Origin: Synechococcus sp. TMED19
GTDB taxonomy: Bacteria > Cyanobacteriota > Cyanobacteriia > PCC-6307 > Cyanobiaceae
Length of the DNA stretch: 32,629 nucleotides
Assembly (NCBI GenBank): GCA_002168155.1
Contig: NHBY01000040.1
Coordinates: 10,847-43,475, forward strand
Reading direction: 5' to 3'
Position numbers and translations under genes: made by a program. This document shows, piece by piece, positions 14,020 to 31,012 of the stretch. Below the pieces are notes generated by a model. The model searched no databases. It was not told the DNA's origin and saw only the letters and a program-made list of their open reading frames with translations. Position 1 is the stretch's first letter, and every line of letters starts with the position of its first letter.

Positions 14020-14889
14020 ATGGCCCACCACTGGAAAGACATCGCTTACTACCAGGTACCTACCGATGGCTCGTTTCAGCTGAATGATCGCCACCCGGAT
14101 TTCCACGGCGAGATTGCTAACAAGAAAGACGCAGCCGAGCTGCTGCAGCAAGGAGTGGAACAGCTCGCTGAGCTGCAGGATGTTCTTTACGCCGATGGGC
14201 GCTGGGGTGTGCTGGTCGTGCTTCAAGCCATTGATGCGGCCGGCAAGGACTCCACCATCAAGCACGTAATGAGTGGGGTTAATCCCCAGGGTGTGAAGGT
14301 CCACAGCTTCAAAAAGCCCTCAGCCGAGGAAATGGCGCACACATGGTTGTGGCGCTACAGCCAGCGGGTTCCATCCCGCGGGGAGATCGGCATCTTCAAC
14401 CGCTCGTATTACGAGGAAGTGCTGGTGGTCAAGGTGCATGATCTCGTCTCCCATCAGGGCCTGCCGTCAGCTCTGGTGGACAAGAAGGTGTTTCCACATC
14501 GCTACGAGGACATCAATGCCTATGAGCAGCACCTCACGCGTAACGGCATCCTGGTGCTGAAGTTCTTCCTCCATATCAGCCCTGACGAGCAGCGCAAACG
14601 CTTCCTGAAGCGACTGGATCGTCCCGACAAGAACTGGAAGTTCTCGCTCAGTGACCTCGAGGAACGCCGCTACTGGGATCAGTACCAGGAGGCATTCGAG
14701 TCCATGATGCGTCACACCAGCACCAGCCATGCTCCCTGGTACTGCGTGCCAATGAACAACAAATGGTTTGGTCGTTTGGTGGTGACCAAGACGATTATCG
14801 AAAAGCTCCAGGCACTAAAGCTCCACTACCCGAAACTCAACGCCGAGCAGGAGCAGGCCCTAGAGAAGGGCAAGGAGATGCTCTCCTAG
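14020..14889 (+). CDS. ppk2: polyphosphate kinase 2 family protein (PPK2)
   Basis: This 289-residue protein transfers phosphate between polyphosphate and nucleotides. The P-loop [20 protein letters not shown] (about residues 69-88) and [20 protein letters not shown] (about 121-140) are hallmark PPK2 motifs, followed by [21 protein letters not shown] (the lid-type segment) and [16 protein letters not shown]. The length fits the single-domain classes (AMP or ADP phosphorylation). Which nucleotide is used cannot be told. AAGGAGG is present 18-24 bases upstream of the ATG, rather far for a ribosome binding site. The stop overlaps the convergent ilvB stop in CTAG. Confidence 0.93.
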
Positions 14890-16748
14890 AGCCTGCTACC
14901 GCAGTTGCTGCAGAAAAGATGCTCAGAAGGGTTGTCGTGCTGGCAGTTACTGCAGGTCCGACGCTCACTCACGGCCAGTTCCGGATGACTGGGGAGGCCA
15001 ACCATCTGAGCATTGCTCTTGCCAGGGGGAACCATTGGGTAGCAGTTCTCCCCTCGGCGTACATGGACGTCAATCAGCATCGGTCCAGGCGTATCAAAAG
15101 CCCGTTGCAGTTCGCTCTGAAGGTTTTCGCGTTCGTTGATCAGAACACCATCAACACCAAAGGAGCGAGCTAACGCGATGAAATCCGGCATCCCAGGCAG
15201 CATGTCTGAGGCGGAGTAGCGCTCCTCGTAGAAACTCTCCTGCCACTGGCGCACCATGCCCTGCCAGTGGTTGTTGACGATGACGAGCTTTACGGGAAGC
15301 TTGTACTGAGCGAGGGTTCCAAGTTCCTGGATGTTCATCAGGATGCTGGCATCGCCGGCGATGCACACCACCTGTTCGTCGGGTAGCGCTACTTGCGCTC
15401 CCATGGCTGCCGGCATGCCGAATCCCATGGTGCCAAGGCCGGCACTGCTGATCCATTGGCGCGGGCCGCAGCGTAGGTACTGTGCAGCCCACATCTGGTG
15501 TTGACCGACATCAGTTGTGATCGTGGCATTGGGTGCCAGATCTCTCACTGCCATCAGCACTTCTTGTGGGTAGATGGCTCCTTCTGGTTGTGGTGTTGCC
15601 AAGGGATAGCGAGATTTCCAGCTGTCAATACGGGCCAGCCAGGAGTTTGTGGCCGGTTCGACGTTGCGCTGCAGGCTCTCCTCGAGCAGTTGTGCCAGGC
15701 TGAGCTTCACATCGCCGAGTACGGCGACCTCGGGTTTGCGGTTCTTGCCCACCTCAGCAGGATCGATCTCAAAGTGAATCACCTTGGCTCGCGGAGCAAA
15801 GGTGTCGAGCTTGCCGGTGACACGGTCGTCAAAACGTGCACCAACGGCGATCAGAAGATCGCATTCAGTCACCGCAAAGTTCGCGTAGGCGGTGCCGTGC
15901 ATCCCAAGCATGCCGAGGGCGAGGGGATCCTTTTCATCGAAGGCTCCTTTGCCCATCAAGGTTGTGGTCACCGGAATGCGATGGCGCTTGGCGATGGCGG
16001 TGATGCTGTCGTGGGCGCCAGCTGAGATGGCGCCACCACCGACGTAGAGAAGGGGGCGCTGGGACTGTTCGATCAGCTCAAGGGCCGCAAGAATGTCAGT
16101 GCGCTCATGCTGGGGAGGCTGCTGGAACCCGCGGGGAATGATGCTGCCTGGCTCGACGGGGACGTAGTCGAATATCTGCTGGCCCACATCTTTGGGGATG
16201 TCCACCAGCACAGGGCCGGGTCGCCCGCTGGCGGCAATGAAGAAGGCTTGGGCGATCACACTGGCGAGATCCTCTGGATCGCGTACGAGCCAGGAGTGCT
16301 TCACGATCGGCAGGGTGATGCCGAAGATATCTGTTTCTTGAAAAGCATCGGTGCCGATCATCGGCCTGGGCACCTGACCGGTGATCACCACCATCGGCAC
16401 CGAGTCCATCTGAGCGGTGGCAATGCCGGTCACCAGGTTGGTGGCACCGGGCCCGGAGGTGCCGAAGCAGACCCCTACCTTGCCGGTGGCCCTTGCGTAG
16501 GCATCAGCAGCGTGGGATCCCCCCTGCTCGTGGCGCACCAGGATGTGGCGCAGATCACCCCGCTCCTCTGCTAGGTGGAGTTCGTCGTAGATCGGCAGGA
16601 TTGCCCCGCCGGGATAACCAAAGATGTGGTTGACCCCATGACGGTGCAGCGAGTCCATCAGCGCGTAGGCCCCGCTGACCCGCTTTGGCACCGCCACGGC
16701 GCTCGCTGTGGGCGTGGGGGACGTGATCGTCACGGCTGGACCCGGCAC
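14886..16748 (-). CDS. ilvB: acetolactate synthase large subunit with C-terminal zinc ribbon (IlvB)
   Basis: This TPP-dependent enzyme makes acetolactate or acetohydroxybutyrate in valine, leucine and isoleucine synthesis. The N-terminal domain has [15 protein letters not shown] and [19 protein letters not shown] (catalytic Glu). The FAD-binding middle domain follows ([10 protein letters not shown]..). The TPP domain has [31 protein letters not shown] and [18 protein letters not shown]. After the usual end ([18 protein letters not shown]) there is an unusual tail [19 protein letters not shown], a C-x2-C-x10-C-x2-C zinc ribbon. The start is GTG at 16748; a GTG at 16733 giving MTITSPTPT is equally plausible. 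The small subunit ilvN is not in the window. Confidence 0.95.
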
Positions 16749-24654: not shown

Positions 24655-25836
24655 CTAGCGCACGACGGCCAGAGCAGCCCCCAGACCGGCACGAACGTCT
24701 TCGGGGTGCAGCTTGCCGTCGTGGTCGGAATCGAGCGCATCAAATACCGCATCACTACCCAGCCACTCTTCGCGGCAGATGCAGCCATCACCATCGAGGT
24801 CGTTGAGCAGGAAGATTTCCTGGGCAGCGTGGGCGAAGGCGGCACCGCCTTCCAGCACCGCCATGCGGTGGGCCAGCTGGGCCTCAAGGGTTTCAATCGC
24901 TTTGGTGAAGCCTTGAATGCCTTCCGCGAGCTTCTCGTGGGCCATCTGGTCTTCGCCCATCATCTGCTCGAAACGGGCGGCGTCGATGTTGAGCTTTTCA
25001 AGATTGCTGCTGGGATTCGCAGCATCGAGCTTGCGTGCCAGGGTGCCCTCCTGGTTTCGCAGCTGATCGAGCAGTTTCGGAGAGATGGTTAGCAGGTCGC
25101 AACCGGCTAGCTCGACGATCTCGTCGACGTTGCGGAAGCTGGCTCCCATCACCTCGGTCTTGTAGCCGTGGGTCTTGAAGTAGTTGAAGATCTTGCTGAC
25201 AGAGACCACGCCTGGGTCTTCGGGGCCGGGGTAGCTGTCACGACCGGTGCTCTTTTTGTACCAGTCGAGGATGCGACCGACGAAGGGAGAGATCAGCGTT
25301 ACACCAGCCTCGGCGCAGGCGGCGGCCTGGGCGAACCCGAATAGCAGGGTCAGGTTGCAGTGAATGCCTGATTTCTCAAGCTCCTCAGCCGCTTTGATGC
25401 CCTCCCAAGTGGAGGCGATCTTGATCAGCACGCGGTCGTTGCTGATGCCGGCGTCGTTGTAAAGGCCAATGAGTTTGTGGGCCTTGGCGATGGTGGCCTC
25501 GGTGTCATAGCTGAGCCTGGCGTCCACCTCAGTGGAGACACGGCCAGGGACGATCTTGAGGATTTCCTTGCCGAAGTTGACGCAGATCTCATCGAGGGCT
25601 TCGGTCACGACCTGCTCTGCAGGTGCTGTGGGACCGATTAGCTCGCGGGAGGCCCGAAGGGTCTCATCGATCAGGTTCTGATAAGCGGGAATCTGTGCTG
25701 CCGCCAGGATCAAGGAAGGATTGGTTGTGGCGTCGCGCGGAGTGAATTTCTCAATTGCCTGGAGATCGCCGGTGTCGGCTACCACCACGGTCATGCTGGA
25801 CAGCTGCTCAAGCAAGGTCGCCACGGCATCAGGCAT
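24655..25836 (-). CDS. tal: transaldolase with C-terminal EF hands
   Basis: The protein of the non-oxidative pentose phosphate pathway moves a dihydroxyacetone unit between sugar phosphates. Residues 1-330 are a TalB-type transaldolase: [19 protein letters not shown], Schiff-base Lys139 in [13 protein letters not shown], and [20 protein letters not shown]. The C-terminal 60 residues carry two EF-hand loops, [12 protein letters not shown] (346-357, canonical) and [12 protein letters not shown] (369-380, Asp at position 12 instead of Glu). EF-hand extensions are known in some cyanobacterial transaldolases and suggest calcium binding; the effect on activity is unknown. It is convergent with the esterase gene, 8 bases apart. 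Confidence 0.95.
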
Positions 25837-25877: not shown

Positions 25878-25895
25878 AAGCCTGGCTTAAGGCTT
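25878..25895 (-). terminator. hairpin after ftsI
   Basis: AAGCCT pairs with AGGCTT around the loop TAAGCC (minus strand), starting in the ftsI stop codon. There is no T run on either strand, so it is a weak terminator candidate between ftsI and tal. Confidence 0.33.
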
Positions 25896-27691
25896 CAGCT
25901 CTTTCGGGATCGGCTGGGGGGGATCCGCTCGATAACCAGTAACGCCTCCATGATGCTTTTGGCTACCGGAGCCGCCACGGTGGAGCCGTAGGCGTGATCT
26001 CCTTGGGGTTCATCCACCACGACCAGCACCACATAACGCGGGTCATCAATGGGGAGGTGGGCCACAAAGCTGGTGATCCGAGCGCCGGGGATGTACACAC
26101 CGTTGGCAGCTTTCTGAGCGGTGCCGGTCTTGCCGCCGATGCGATAACCGGCGATTTGTGCCTTTTTACCGCTTCCCTTTTCGACAACGGTTTCAAGCCA
26201 GCTGAGTACTTGGGAACTGACTTTGGGATCCAGCAATGCTTGTCGGCGAGCGCGGCCAGGTCCGGCCAGGTCATCACCGCTGCGAAGGCCACGGGTGATG
26301 TGCGGGCTAACCAGATGACCGCCATTGCTGAGCATGGCGTGCAGCTGCAAGAGCTTCAGAGGAGTGAGGGCGAGCCCCTGACCGAAGGCGGCTGTGGCCG
26401 GTTCAATCGGGTTGCCCGTGAACACTCTGCGGCTTTTGAGCTGGCCGCTGACAGCACCTGGTAGGTCGGTGTCCGGTGCTGAGCCAATGCCGAGCCGTTC
26501 GAGCCATTCCCAGTAGCGGTCGGCATTGAGTCGTTGCATGGCTCTCACCATGCCGACGTTGCTCGAGACCTGTAGCACTTTGGCTAGCCCCACCTTGCCG
26601 TGGGCAACCTTGTCGTGGTTGTAGATCGGCCAGCCGCTGATCATCAGGCTGCCCTTGTCAACAACGGTGCTGCCAGGGCTCAGCGCTTTCTCCTGAAGCG
26701 CAATGGCTAAGTTGATGGGCTTGAGTGTGGAACCTGGTTCATAAAGATCCTGTACGGACCATTCCCGGAACAGGCTGGGGGAGAACTCCCAGAACTCGTT
26801 TGGGTCATAGGTCGGAACGGATGCAAGAGCCAGCAGTTCCCCATTGCTGGCATCCATCACCAGCGCCGCACCACGCTTGGCCGACCATTGTTGGACTTGG
26901 CGGGCCAGCTCCAGCTGCGCCACCCGTTGAAGGCGGGTATCGAGCGTGAGCTGCAGGCGCAGATCATCACGATGCATACGTCCTGCACCAATTCCATCGG
27001 GCAGCGGTGTGCCATCACCGCCCTTACGGATTCCTAGAGGCAACTCTTGGCTTTGGAGCCGCTGATTCAAGCTCAGCTCAAGTCCTGCCTGAGGCACCCG
27101 CTCAAGGTTGAGAAAGCCGAGCACATTGGCGAACAGGCTGCCCTGGGGGTAAACGCGCTGGGGGCCATGCTCGAAGTCGATGCCGTCAATGCCAAGTCTC
27201 CGCAGCCTGGTAGCCAGTGAGGGCTCAAGGTTGTTGGCTAAACGGACCCCGGAGCGGTGTTGGCCCATGCGCTGCACCAAGTCGGTGGCAGCAACTCCAA
27301 GCAATGGAGACATCTTGGCTGACACCTCGGTGGTGCTGCGCCGAATGGATGACTCGTCTCCAGGGAAACGGAAGTAACGGGGATGGGCCCAGACGGTGAC
27401 GCGTTCCTCGTCGATGGCTAGGAGTCGTCCACGACGATCGACGATCGTGCGGCGCCTGCCCAGGGGATTACGGGTTTCGGTCTGCACTCGGCGAGCCCGG
27501 GCCTCAAGGCGGGTGCCTTCGATCAGCTGCAGCCAAGCGAGCCGCAGGCCAAGACCACCTAAGGCCAAAGCCAGAAGCACCATCACTGTGATGAGACGGC
27601 TGGCGGGAACGACGTGAAGTTGCAGCACTCGCTGCGAACGATGCGCTCCACGCAGGGTGCGACCACGCGTTGGGGCTTGAATTCGCGCCAC
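25895..27691 (-). CDS. ftsI: septal peptidoglycan transpeptidase FtsI (PBP2/PBP3 class B)
   Basis: This 598-residue class B penicillin-binding protein has a short cytoplasmic N-terminus, one transmembrane helix (about residues 32-52), a pedestal domain (...VDRRGRLLAIDEERVTVWAHP) and a C-terminal transpeptidase. The active-site motifs are present: Ser321 in YEPGSTLKPINLAIAL (SxxK), SSNVG (SxN, about 376) and GGKTGTAQKA (KTG, about 521). It cross-links peptidoglycan at the division septum in the divisome with FtsW. The upstream gene, 2 bases away, is a FtsL-like small membrane protein. Confidence 0.93.
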   Translation of the reverse strand: MARIQAPTRGRTLRGAHRSQRVLQLHVVPASRLITVMVLLALALGGLGLRLAWLQLIEGTRLEARARRVQTETRNPLGRRRTIVDRRGRLLAIDEERVTVWAHPRYFRFPGDESSIRRSTTEVSAKMSPLLGVAATDLVQRMGQHRSGVRLANNLEPSLATRLRRLGIDGIDFEHGPQRVYPQGSLFANVLGFLNLERVPQAGLELSLNQRLQSQELPLGIRKGGDGTPLPDGIGAGRMHRDDLRLQLTLDTRLQRVAQLELARQVQQWSAKRGAALVMDASNGELLALASVPTYDPNEFWEFSPSLFREWSVQDLYEPGSTLKPINLAIALQEKALSPGSTVVDKGSLMISGWPIYNHDKVAHGKVGLAKVLQVSSNVGMVRAMQRLNADRYWEWLERLGIGSAPDTDLPGAVSGQLKSRRVFTGNPIEPATAAFGQGLALTPLKLLQLHAMLSNGGHLVSPHITRGLRSGDDLAGPGRARRQALLDPKVSSQVLSWLETVVEKGSGKKAQIAGYRIGGKTGTAQKAANGVYIPGARITSFVAHLPIDDPRYVVLVVVDEPQGDHAYGSTVAAPVAKSIMEALLVIERIPPSRSRKS

Positions 27692-27693
27692 GC

Positions 27694-28224
27694 TCAGTAC
27701 CCGCTAGCGATCAGTTCGAACTGGAGGGGCTGCTGAACCTTGCTGCCTGTCCCTCGCGGAGGCGGGCTGGGCAGGAATAACAAATCCTTGCTGCTCGTCG
27801 CCACCAGAGTGCCTGGACGGCTTGCACGACTGAGGAAATGCCGCTCTAGAGCCGAGCGGCTCTCCATGACTCGATGTTCGAGCTCCTGGGCGGACTGCAG
27901 ATTTCGAAAATCATGGCCCCAGCGTCCCTGCCAGTGCAGTGTCAGTCCAGCTAAAGCAAGGGCTGCAACGCCTGTCGCTAGAAGAGCGCCATCGGCAACG
28001 CGGTGTAAACCAGCCAACCAGGGCGCTTGGCGTTCAACCCGGCGGGCTGAAAGCGACCCCTGAAGTAGTTCAAGTGAGCGCTTCTGGCGCTGGACACGGC
28101 GCTGTGCAACACGTGATCGGCGCTCACTTAACGCGCGTTGTTGGGCACTGCCGGTGTCCGGGTGCTGTGGCAGGGGGACGGCAACCACCGGGACTGGACC
28201 ACAGAAGATGTGCCAGTGAACCAC
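27694..28224 (-). CDS. FtsL-like single-pass membrane protein (candidate divisome component)
   Basis: The 176-residue protein has a basic N-terminus (SERRSRVAQRRVQRQKRSLE), one transmembrane helix (about 78-97, ALLATGVAALALAGLTLHW) and an outside segment predicted to form a coiled coil (about 104-131, DFRNLQSAQELEHRVMESRS), ending in a Pro-rich tail (LFLPSPPPRG). I do not recognise it by sequence. The topology and its position immediately before ftsI, 2 bases apart, match FtsL, which is hard to detect by similarity because it diverges fast. It starts at GTG 28224; a GTG at 28188 is an alternative. The assignment is by context and architecture only. Confidence 0.6.
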   Translation of the reverse strand: MVHWHIFCGPVPVVAVPLPQHPDTGSAQQRALSERRSRVAQRRVQRQKRSLELLQGSLSARRVERQAPWLAGLHRVADGALLATGVAALALAGLTLHWQGRWGHDFRNLQSAQELEHRVMESRSALERHFLSRASRPGTLVATSSKDLLFLPSPPPRGTGSKVQQPLQFELIASGY

Positions 28225-28246: not shown

Positions 28247-29623
28247 TTAGCTGCCCAGCAGCAGCAGATTCACAAAGGTCAGCCCGTTCCAGAGGCTATG
28301 CATCAGCACGGTGCTGAACAGTCGACCACTGCTCCAGCGCAGCCAGCCAAGACCAATCCCCAGAGCGAGAAGCGGTGGTGCTTCGCTGAGGCTGAGGTGG
28401 GCTAGGGCAAATACCAGCGCACTGACCAGGATTCCGGCACTGACGCCCCAGCGCCGACCCACCACCGGTAGTAGGACCCCCCGGAACAGCACTTCCTCAA
28501 ACAGGGGAGCCAGCACGGTGGCGGTGATTGCTAGAAGACCGATGGCCACGCCACTGCGGCCATTGAGAACCTCTTCCAGCAGAGGATTGCTGCCGCCGGC
28601 ATCGGGCCATAAGCGTTCCACCAGCCATCCGAGCAGGGCCACCAGGGGCAGGCTCATCAGCAGGCCGCGCAAGGCCTGTGGCCAGCATTTCCAGCTTGGG
28701 AGCCATTGCAGTAAGCGCCCCTCACCTTCAGGAAGATTGCGCAGTAGCAGCACAAGGACCGCAACAGCTGGTAAGGCAGCGACGCTGTAGAGAATCAGGA
28801 CCTCCAGAGCGGCACGAAGAGCCGGCGTCAGGGTGAGTCCATCAAGCAGGCTCCCAAGCATCGGCATGGCCAGCAGGGGTGTCACCAGCCCGCCGAGCAC
28901 GACAAAACCGCCGGCGATCAGCAGCACGGTTTCTGTGATGGTGAGATCGGGCCCCTGCAGTTCTGGAGCCGCCGGCTGCTGACCTCGCCAGCGGCGCCAC
29001 AGCTGCTGAAGCAACAGCACACCGCCAGCGAGCACTCCGAACAGTGGCAGCAGATTGACTAGGACCAGCCGCCAGCTAGCCCAGCGCAGCGTTGCCGGCG
29101 ATAAGCAGGCATCGGCAGGCTGCTGTAAGGCCTCACAGACGAGCAGCCGATAAAGGGGCCGATCGGGCAGGGGTGGCAGGGGTTGTTGCGCCGGATCCGG
29201 GGCCAGCAGGGTTTCGGCAAGAGGTCGCAGATCTTCCGGTCCGCTTTTGATCACGGTGTTGAGATGACGCCGTGACTGGTCCACAAGGCCAAGACTGTCT
29301 TCCAGCAAAGCCTGAGCCAGCAGGCTGTCGCTGCTCCCGGCTCGTGGGCTTTGCTGCAGGGTTTCCAGCAATTGCTGCTCAGGAGGCAGCGGGCCAGTGG
29401 GTAGAAGGTCTCTACCGCCATCCCGCTCTGCCAGCACCTCAAGCTCTAGCTGGCGCTGTTCGAGAACGTTGCCGACGGAGGGACGTTCGATGCTCTGGGC
29501 CAGTGAGAAGCCCCAGATCAGTAATGCCAAAGCCAGGCTTAGTAGGGCCAGCAGGCTCAGCAGCGGTGTTGTTCGCCTGGTTGAGTCCCTGCTCGGCACT
29601 GTTGCTCTCCGGTTGCAGGGCAT
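28247..29623 (-). CDS. CPBP family intramembrane metalloprotease
   Basis: A protein of about 458 residues with several transmembrane helices. In the C-terminal half LFEEVLFRGVLLPVVGRRWG carries the E-E-x-x-x-R motif, SALVFALAHLSLSEAPPLLA the F-x-x-x-H motif, and LMHSLWNGLTFVN the final His/Asn motif, so the CPBP (Rce1/CAAX-like) active site is complete. The N-terminal half holds a membrane helix (LLALLSLALALLIWGFSL) and a long charged outside region (about 60-180) with no known domain. The substrate is unknown. The track start at 29794 would overlap the divergent phosphatase, so I use the ATG at 29623. Confidence 0.85.
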   Translation of the reverse strand: MPCNRRATVPSRDSTRRTTPLLSLLALLSLALALLIWGFSLAQSIERPSVGNVLEQRQLELEVLAERDGGRDLLPTGPLPPEQQLLETLQQSPRAGSSDSLLAQALLEDSLGLVDQSRRHLNTVIKSGPEDLRPLAETLLAPDPAQQPLPPLPDRPLYRLLVCEALQQPADACLSPATLRWASWRLVLVNLLPLFGVLAGGVLLLQQLWRRWRGQQPAAPELQGPDLTITETVLLIAGGFVVLGGLVTPLLAMPMLGSLLDGLTLTPALRAALEVLILYSVAALPAVAVLVLLLRNLPEGEGRLLQWLPSWKCWPQALRGLLMSLPLVALLGWLVERLWPDAGGSNPLLEEVLNGRSGVAIGLLAITATVLAPLFEEVLFRGVLLPVVGRRWGVSAGILVSALVFALAHLSLSEAPPLLALGIGLGWLRWSSGRLFSTVLMHSLWNGLTFVNLLLLGS

Positions 29624-29683
29624 TGTCACTGCTGGCCGGAGCCGGGGTGCGTACGATGACGCCCCGAACCGTGAAGACTCCCC

Positions 29684-31012
29684 TTGGCCACGAGGATTTT
29701 GCTGGTGCGGCACGGTCTCAGCAGCTTCAATCAGGAAGGGCGCATTCAGGGCCGTGAAGATGCCTCCCAGCTCAGTGATGCCGGCGTGGAACAAGCCCAG
29801 CGCCTAGGGGATGCACTGAAAGATGTACCGCTTACTGCAGCCTTCTGCTCACCGTTGCAGCGAGCTCACAAGACCGCTGAACTGCTACTGGCTCGACAGG
29901 GAAGCGATGTAACCCTCACCAGCACCGAGCAGCTGCTGGAGATCGATCTTTCCTGCTGGAGCGGTCTTCTTCGTGGCGAGGTGGCCAGGCTTCACCCTGA
30001 TGAGGATCGTCTCTGGCGAACAGCCCCCGCCGAGCTTCAGTTGCAGCGCGCTGATGGCAGCAGTTACTACCCGGTGCAGGAACTGTTGGTGCAGGCCAAG
30101 GCCTTCTGGCAAGAACTGCAGCAGCGCTTTCCTCCTGAGGGGGATCACAGTGTTTTGGTGGTGGCACACAACGGAATCCTGCGTTGCCTTCTGCTGGCGG
30201 CTCTGGACTTGCCGGCAAGTCATTTCAACCGCTACCGCATCAACAACGCTTCCCTCTCGGTCTTGAACCTCAAGAGCGGCGGTCAGGTTCAGATTGAATC
30301 GCTCAACACCATCGCTCATCTGGGCGAGAGCCTCCCCTCGCGCAAGAGCGGTCCGCGGGTGTTGCTGGTGCGCCATGGAGAAACGAATTGGAATAAGGAG
30401 GGTCGTTTTCAGGGCCAGATCGATATCCCTCTCAATGACCGCGGCTGGGCACAGGCGGAAGCCGCCGGCAACTTCCTCAGTGACGTGGCCGTTGACCGTG
30501 CGTTCGCCAGCTCCCTCACCCGCCCCCACCAGACAGCCGAGGCGATCTTGAAGCAGCAGGCTGCTGATCTTCCGATCACCAGCTGTCCGGGTTTGGTGGA
30601 GATTGGTCATGGCGCCTGGGAAGGCTGCCTTGAACAGGAGATCCGTGATGGTTGGCCTGAACTTCTGGCGGCCTGGCAGACGGAGCCCCACACCGTTGAG
30701 ATGCCTGGAGAAGGCGGAGAGACGATCCAGCAGGTCTGGGACCGATCAGTGGTTGCTTGGCAGGAGATCATTCATTCCCTTAAAGACGGTGAGACTGCAC
30801 TGGTGGTGGCTCACGATGCGGTCAATAAAACGATCCTCTGCCACCTGCTTGGCCTCGGTCCACAGGACATTTGGGCGGTCAAGCAGGGCAATGGTGGTGT
30901 GAGTGTTATTGATTACGCCCCAGGAGGAGACGCTCAGCATGTGGTCGCCAGTCTCAACTTGACTGGCCACCTGGGAGGGGTGCTGGATCGCACGGCGGCT
31001 GGCGCCCTGTGA
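29684..31012 (+). CDS. tandem histidine phosphatase (two PGM-like domains)
   Basis: This 442-residue protein has two complete histidine-phosphatase domains. Domain 1 has ILLVRHGLSSFNQEGRIQGR (R-H-G), FCSPLQRAHKTAELLL and VLVVAHNGILRC. Domain 2 has VLLVRHGETNWNKEGRFQGQ, FASSLTRPHQTAEAI and ALVVAHDAVNKTIL. Both catalytic His pairs are present. Tandem proteins of this type are found in cyanobacteria and plants, where some are linked to inhibitory pentulose bisphosphate or carboxyarabinitol phosphate removal for Rubisco; here the substrate is unassigned. The start is TTG, the first possible after an in-frame stop. Its TGA overlaps the GTG of the dihydroorotase-like gene. Confidence 0.85.
   Translation: MATRILLVRHGLSSFNQEGRIQGREDASQLSDAGVEQAQRLGDALKDVPLTAAFCSPLQRAHKTAELLLARQGSDVTLTSTEQLLEIDLSCWSGLLRGEVARLHPDEDRLWRTAPAELQLQRADGSSYYPVQELLVQAKAFWQELQQRFPPEGDHSVLVVAHNGILRCLLLAALDLPASHFNRYRINNASLSVLNLKSGGQVQIESLNTIAHLGESLPSRKSGPRVLLVRHGETNWNKEGRFQGQIDIPLNDRGWAQAEAAGNFLSDVAVDRAFASSLTRPHQTAEAILKQQAADLPITSCPGLVEIGHGAWEGCLEQEIRDGWPELLAAWQTEPHTVEMPGEGGETIQQVWDRSVVAWQEIIHSLKDGETALVVAHDAVNKTILCHLLGLGPQDIWAVKQGNGGVSVIDYAPGGDAQHVVASLNLTGHLGGVLDRTAAGAL

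Follow-up and report, generated by a model that had tools for sequence, protein, structure and literature searches.

A strongly diverged FtsL candidate encoded upstream of ftsI in cyanobacteria

Results

The locus and its reading frame

Within the window, the whole stretch of 32,629 nucleotides of DNA analysed here, a small ORF precedes ftsI and is itself preceded by a gene for an intramembrane protease (Table 1). An earlier note had proposed this ORF as a divergent ftsL ending 2 bases before ftsI, leaving its strand unstated. The ORF is real and lies on the minus strand, and the spacing was given correctly: the junction reads, 5' to 3', ...GGG TAC TGA GC GTG GCG..., in which TGA terminates the candidate and GTG is the start codon of ftsI. 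The product of the latter contains the Pfam domains Transpeptidase (PF00905, E=7e-66) and PBP_dimer (PF03717). The 176 residues initially assigned to the candidate describe the longest ORF; the protein itself is probably 164 residues long, because close relatives start 'MVAVPLP' and the matching codon of the window ORF (codon 13) is the GTG at 28188, which is probably the real start in place of that at 28224.

Table 1. Features of the candidate ftsL locus, with positions in the window
Feature	Position	Strand	Basis or remark
ftsI, septal peptidoglycan transpeptidase	25895..27691	minus	begins 2 bp past the stop codon of the candidate
Longest ORF of candidate ftsL	27694..28224	minus	176 codons, GTG start
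Candidate ftsL, preferred start GTG at 28188	27694..28188	minus	164 aa, stop TGA; start of relatives and family-wide homology
Basic stretch of cytoplasmic tail, ERRSRVAQRRVQRQKRS	28075..28125	minus	sequence
Core of single transmembrane helix, GALLATGVAALALAGLTL	27937..27990	minus	hydropathy and AlphaFold2 helix
Juxtamembrane and periplasmic coiled-coil helix, WQGRWGHD...RHFLS; nearly invariant Gln, Trp, Leu	27829..27933	minus	family alignment, AlphaFold2
Post-coil segment, RPGTLVATSSKDLLFLPSP; family pattern G-L-V-P-x-x-P-x-x-x-I-F-L	27763..27819	minus	family alignment, hhalign
C-terminal peptide, IASGY-COOH	27697..27711	minus	101/103 members of the family share the [G/A]-Y end
CPBP/Rce1-like intramembrane protease, directly upstream of candidate ftsL	28247..29794	minus	

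Neither Pfam nor NCBIfam gave a match to the window protein with the threshold relaxed to E<=10, and the context of its start is weak, features that would suit an unexpressed ORF or an unrelated small one lying beside ftsI. That explanation, to which we assign a negligible probability, is already refuted by conservation of the ORF across all genera searched in the class and by its mode of change: relative to the nearest relative dN is 0.26 while dS is saturated at about 2.4, and the ORF therefore encodes a protein under purifying selection.

Predicted architecture of the protein

Sequence, hydropathy and AlphaFold2 together bore out the basic inner N-terminus, single membrane helix and outer coiled coil described in the earlier note. 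The short N-terminal tail contains 13 K/R versus 5 D/E, and by the positive-inside rule the product is predicted to be a single-pass membrane protein oriented N-in, with this tail in the cytoplasm. AlphaFold2, supplied with an alignment of 63 homologues (A1, below), placed ORF residues 68-134 in one unbroken helix with pLDDT of 96-99 over most of its length, so that the transmembrane helix runs on into the periplasmic coiled-coil helix; the C-terminal arm was modelled with low confidence. This N-in, single-pass topology, in which the transmembrane helix extends without a break into a periplasmic coiled coil, is shared with known FtsL (PMC7614612), although the cytoplasmic tail of E. coli FtsL is shorter than that of the candidate. 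A Foldseek search of the PDB with the predicted monomer returned zero matches, as expected for a single long helix, and a PDB sequence search with the family profile gave chance matches only.

Two further stretches can be aligned in position with canonical FtsL. Immediately outside the membrane, a nearly invariant Gln and Trp fall approximately where canonical FtsL has its conserved Arg between FtsW and FtsI, and hhalign pairs the family pattern that follows the coil with 'LGMxxPxxxqIxxV', a short hydrophobic post-coil segment being common to both. The signature 'RIExxAxxxLGMxxP', common in aligned FtsL of Bacillota and E. coli, is missing from the window protein and from photosynthetic members of the family. 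We regard it as typical rather than definitional of FtsL because known FtsL sequences, according to the available part of a survey of dcw clusters (PMC8871954), are divided among 36 orthologous groups.

The family differs from known FtsL at its far end, where a variable Pro-rich linker leads to an almost invariant [G/A]-Tyr C-terminus: [G/A]Y occurs in 101 of 103 members, and the terminal residue is Tyr in 102 and Phe in the one remaining. Copies unlinked from ftsI share this end, which rules out that it is forced by overlap with ftsI and indicates that it is selected in the protein. The [G/A]Y end is a new feature of the candidate family, which may be a docking or recognition end. Two Bacillota FtsL (L141:1342-1848 and L152:1306-1881) likewise terminate in '...VPGY'; in several other long-tailed Bacillota FtsL the chain closes with 'EAS' followed by one or two residues.

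Distribution and gene order

A search with the single sequence retrieved the family from 143 of 150 genomes of the order (picocyanobacteria), covering 25/25 genera; ftsI was present in all 150. We then used an iterative profile built from the regions before ftsI in 40 genomes, nearly all of which belong to other cyanobacterial families, and in these the neighbour before ftsI was almost always a member of the same family, 130-300 aa in length with one transmembrane segment. The profile from A1 (63 family sequences) identified the family in 238 of 242 class genomes, in 224 of the 225 of high quality and in 121/121 genera, nearly always as a single copy per genome, a near-universal conservation consistent with a need for the protein in cell division.

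Linkage to ftsI is likewise widespread. Each of the 50 picocyanobacterial loci examined (one, L076, by six-frame scan) has the family immediately upstream of ftsI, as do, on the same strand, 108 of the 123 class genomes for which the places of both genes were listed; in the other 15, of which three have a second ftsI-like gene, the best family copy is found at another place. The earlier note had held that absence from relatives, or lack of linkage to ftsI there, would speak against the assignment; these counts show neither. In several cyanobacterial families (L104-L109, L112 and the genomes of family f23) the ftsL-like gene is intact yet moved from ftsI.

The place before ftsI, in some genomes combined with a place after rsmH (mraW), is one that the family shares with ftsL. 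The available part of the dcw survey indicates that ftsL was assigned there by its position between mraW and ftsI, and that cyanobacteria generally have all dcw genes but mraZ and ftsA, in dispersed form (PMC8871954). Unlike known ftsL, the cyanobacterial gene is mostly unlinked from rsmH, as in the window itself, and sometimes from ftsI. The order rsmH-X-ftsI was nevertheless found in eight relatives: five photosynthetic genomes (L047, L055, L056, L068, L211) and three members of the phylum (L196, L197, L198) taken as non-photosynthetic from their kinship (same phylum, other class). The rsmH product was confirmed as PF01795 in L196, L197 and L211; in the first two of these, Pfam also confirmed ftsI.

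Remote homology to known FtsL

No curated FtsL model recognises the family at its cut-off, which is a detection threshold and not a biological definition: PF04999 scored above cut-off in 0/116 cyanobacterial genomes and TIGR02209 (ftsL_broad) in 0/242. Matches to these two models in cyanobacterial genomes fall mostly on unrelated coiled-coil proteins, TIGR02209 being noisy in this setting; five of its matches land on the gene of this family and, given the noise, are not taken as proof. Its match in the genome from which the window derives (C40) is an unrelated ORF resembling a secreted protein. When the 63 family members were compared with 18,950 NCBIfam models, ftsL_broad and FtsL_Actino (NF053549) belonged to the three models with the most matches, four members each (best E 3.7e-4 and 7.7e-3, respectively), a result treated only as a lead because TIGR02209 also matches many unrelated coiled-coil proteins.

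The strongest link runs through the non-photosynthetic Cyanobacteriota. The X proteins of L196, L197 and L198 match the family profile (E 3.3e-7, 1.6e-4 and 0.003), and their best NCBIfam match is FtsL_Actino (E 5e-7, 6e-4 and 2e-3), the sole match in two of them. These bridging members carry a remnant of the FtsL signature, 'VExxAxxxG(M/L)' (e.g., 'LPAVESRAQAMGMQP'), and their last two residues are likewise Gly-Tyr or Gly-Phe. When the cyanobacterial profile was run against 150 Bacillota genomes, the best match (E 1.7e-4) stood about eightfold ahead of the next in E-value and was the only one to cover nearly the whole profile (positions 14-159 of 170). Its gene sits between those for rsmH and ftsI in a cluster mraZ-rsmH-X-ftsI, and it matches FtsL_Actino at 2.4e-9.

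In profile-profile (HMM-HMM) comparison, hhalign aligned the family with 42 Bacillota FtsL proteins encoded upstream of a transpeptidase gene, plus E. coli FtsL (together A2), at a probability of 85.6% (P 5.5e-6, 71 columns), co-linearly from the end of the transmembrane helix through the coil to the post-coil strand. With an earlier FtsL set of 31, the real score was reached by 0/200 nulls with shuffled columns, by 0/200 heptad-block nulls with a shuffled transmembrane segment, and by 3/200 in which this segment was kept intact and the heptads were permuted; the similarity is therefore specific but modest.

The modest similarity bears on the idea that the protein is a cyanobacterial invention, an unrelated single-pass coiled-coil regulator of FtsI that replaced FtsL by convergence. 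A transmembrane segment followed by a coiled coil can produce spurious profile similarity, as the three nulls illustrate, and the idea would also account for the failure of every curated model, the missing signature and the unique [G/A]Y end. It is largely refuted by the bridging sequences, which supply graded sequence continuity, lie between rsmH and ftsI and carry both the signature remnant and the G-Y/F end, and we consider it very improbable.

FtsB/DivIC and the slr1601 family

FtsB/DivIC (PF04977) and the NCBIfam 'slr1601 family putative cell division protein' (NF052344) share with the candidate the general fold of a transmembrane helix plus coiled coil. Applied to cyanobacteria, a Bacillota FtsL profile finds a gene of the slr1601 family first (E 3.5e-8), ahead of the candidate ftsL family; its match to DivIC is sub-threshold. 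This is a separate single-pass coiled-coil family (L091:1450-1848, minus; L092; L093; L103:2040-2390, plus), encoded by a separate gene that co-occurs with the candidate in some genomes, and despite the same architecture hhalign relates it to the candidate family with a probability of only 5%.

The two families could in principle have exchanged roles, the candidate being the FtsB/DivIC counterpart, or combining the functions of FtsL and FtsB, and the slr1601-family protein being FtsL. FtsL and FtsB have a common fold and low conservation, and the precedence of the slr1601-like gene in the FtsL search speaks for such an exchange, as does the behaviour of an slr1601-like pair (two sequences), which hhalign fits about as well to FtsL as to DivIC (34.9 vs 31.4, no clear separation). 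The candidate family, by comparison, scores 31.7 against FtsL and 25.1 against DivIC, and the bridge set 62.3 against 35.3; the bridging members match FtsL models and not FtsB models, and the position rsmH-X-ftsI is that of ftsL. We judge the exchanged assignment unlikely, and regard the slr1601-family protein as the natural, best candidate for FtsB.

Discussion

Reviews list FtsL as absent from cyanobacteria (PMC7766704), whose divisome has been described as being without both FtsL and FtsB (PMC7766704, PMC4748335), although one genome report includes ftsL in a subsystem table (PMC5069947). We found no description of a cyanobacterial ftsL family in the available part of the dcw survey (PMC8871954), nor any published description of the present family in a search of the published, mainly open-access literature. 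Were FtsL and FtsB truly missing, the activation of FtsWI would be left unexplained in one of the largest bacterial phyla.

The results presented here support the divergent FtsL proposed at the outset, chiefly through the rsmH-X-ftsI order in eight relatives and the remote homology to bona fide FtsL. Taking these together with topology, the continuous transmembrane-coil helix and near-universal presence, we consider the gene very probably to be the cyanobacterial ftsL, vertically inherited and strongly diverged, that has kept its place before ftsI. Several observations weigh in the other direction: scores stay below the curated cut-offs; photosynthetic members have no 'RIExxAxxxLGMxxP'; the Bacillota FtsL profile prefers the slr1601-family gene; some nulls with the transmembrane segment kept reach the real score; linkage to ftsI is missing in some families; and the Foldseek monomer search was without a match.

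An alternative missing component has been suggested in CyDiv (All2320 of Anabaena PCC 7120), proposed as an FtsB/DivIC-like part of the cyanobacterial divisome and reported to be specific to filamentous forms, with a coiled coil near its N-terminus and a transmembrane segment near its C-terminus (PMC4748335). The candidate has the reverse arrangement in the AlphaFold2 model, transmembrane helix and then coil, and is set apart from CyDiv as published.

In the Pseudomonas FtsWIQBL structure, FtsL is made up of one long coiled-coil helix plus a short helix and a strand; within the membrane it touches FtsW, its coil contacts the FtsI pedestal, and its last strand completes the FtsQ-FtsB sheet (PMC7614612). 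By analogy, the short basic tail of the cyanobacterial protein would face the FtsZ-linked side, and its transmembrane and periplasmic helix would pair with an FtsB partner, the leading candidate being the slr1601-family protein. The same helix would lie along the FtsI pedestal and FtsW, coupling assembly of the divisome to activation of septal peptidoglycan synthesis, so that FtsL would link FtsQ and the FtsB partner to FtsI and FtsW and transmit activation. The 'GLVP..P...IFL' stretch may be the counterpart of the distal FtsL region in contact with FtsQ and FtsI, and the Pro-rich linker may present the conserved [G/A]-Tyr-COOH end to some partner. An FtsL that occurs near-universally, mostly with its gene beside ftsI, fills half of the gap in FtsWI activation with a gene testable in any model cyanobacterium, and in combination with the slr1601 family as FtsB candidate it suggests a complete cyanobacterial FtsQLB complex.

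The nearly invariant Gly-Tyr end is a specific, unexplained feature that can be tested by a single point mutation. As a tentative proposal, which we hold to be possible but doubtful, cyanobacterial FtsL may have been rebuilt, its distal FtsI/FtsQ contact replaced by a flexible Pro-rich arm whose [G/A]-Tyr-COOH docks on a phylum-specific divisome partner or serves as a protease recognition tail; septal synthesis would then be switched by a signal that other bacteria do not use.

A relative of the CPBP protease lies directly upstream of the ftsL-ftsI pair in 50/50 picocyanobacterial loci examined, and also in L036-L038. RasP controls the level of FtsL in Bacillus, and by analogy the adjacent CPBP intramembrane protease could control that of FtsL in picocyanobacteria. 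Elsewhere on the minus strand of the window are genes for a transaldolase-like protein whose C-terminus carries two EF-hand-like motifs (24655-25836) and for an acetolactate-synthase-like protein that has a zinc-ribbon-like tail with four cysteines at its C-terminus (14886-16748).
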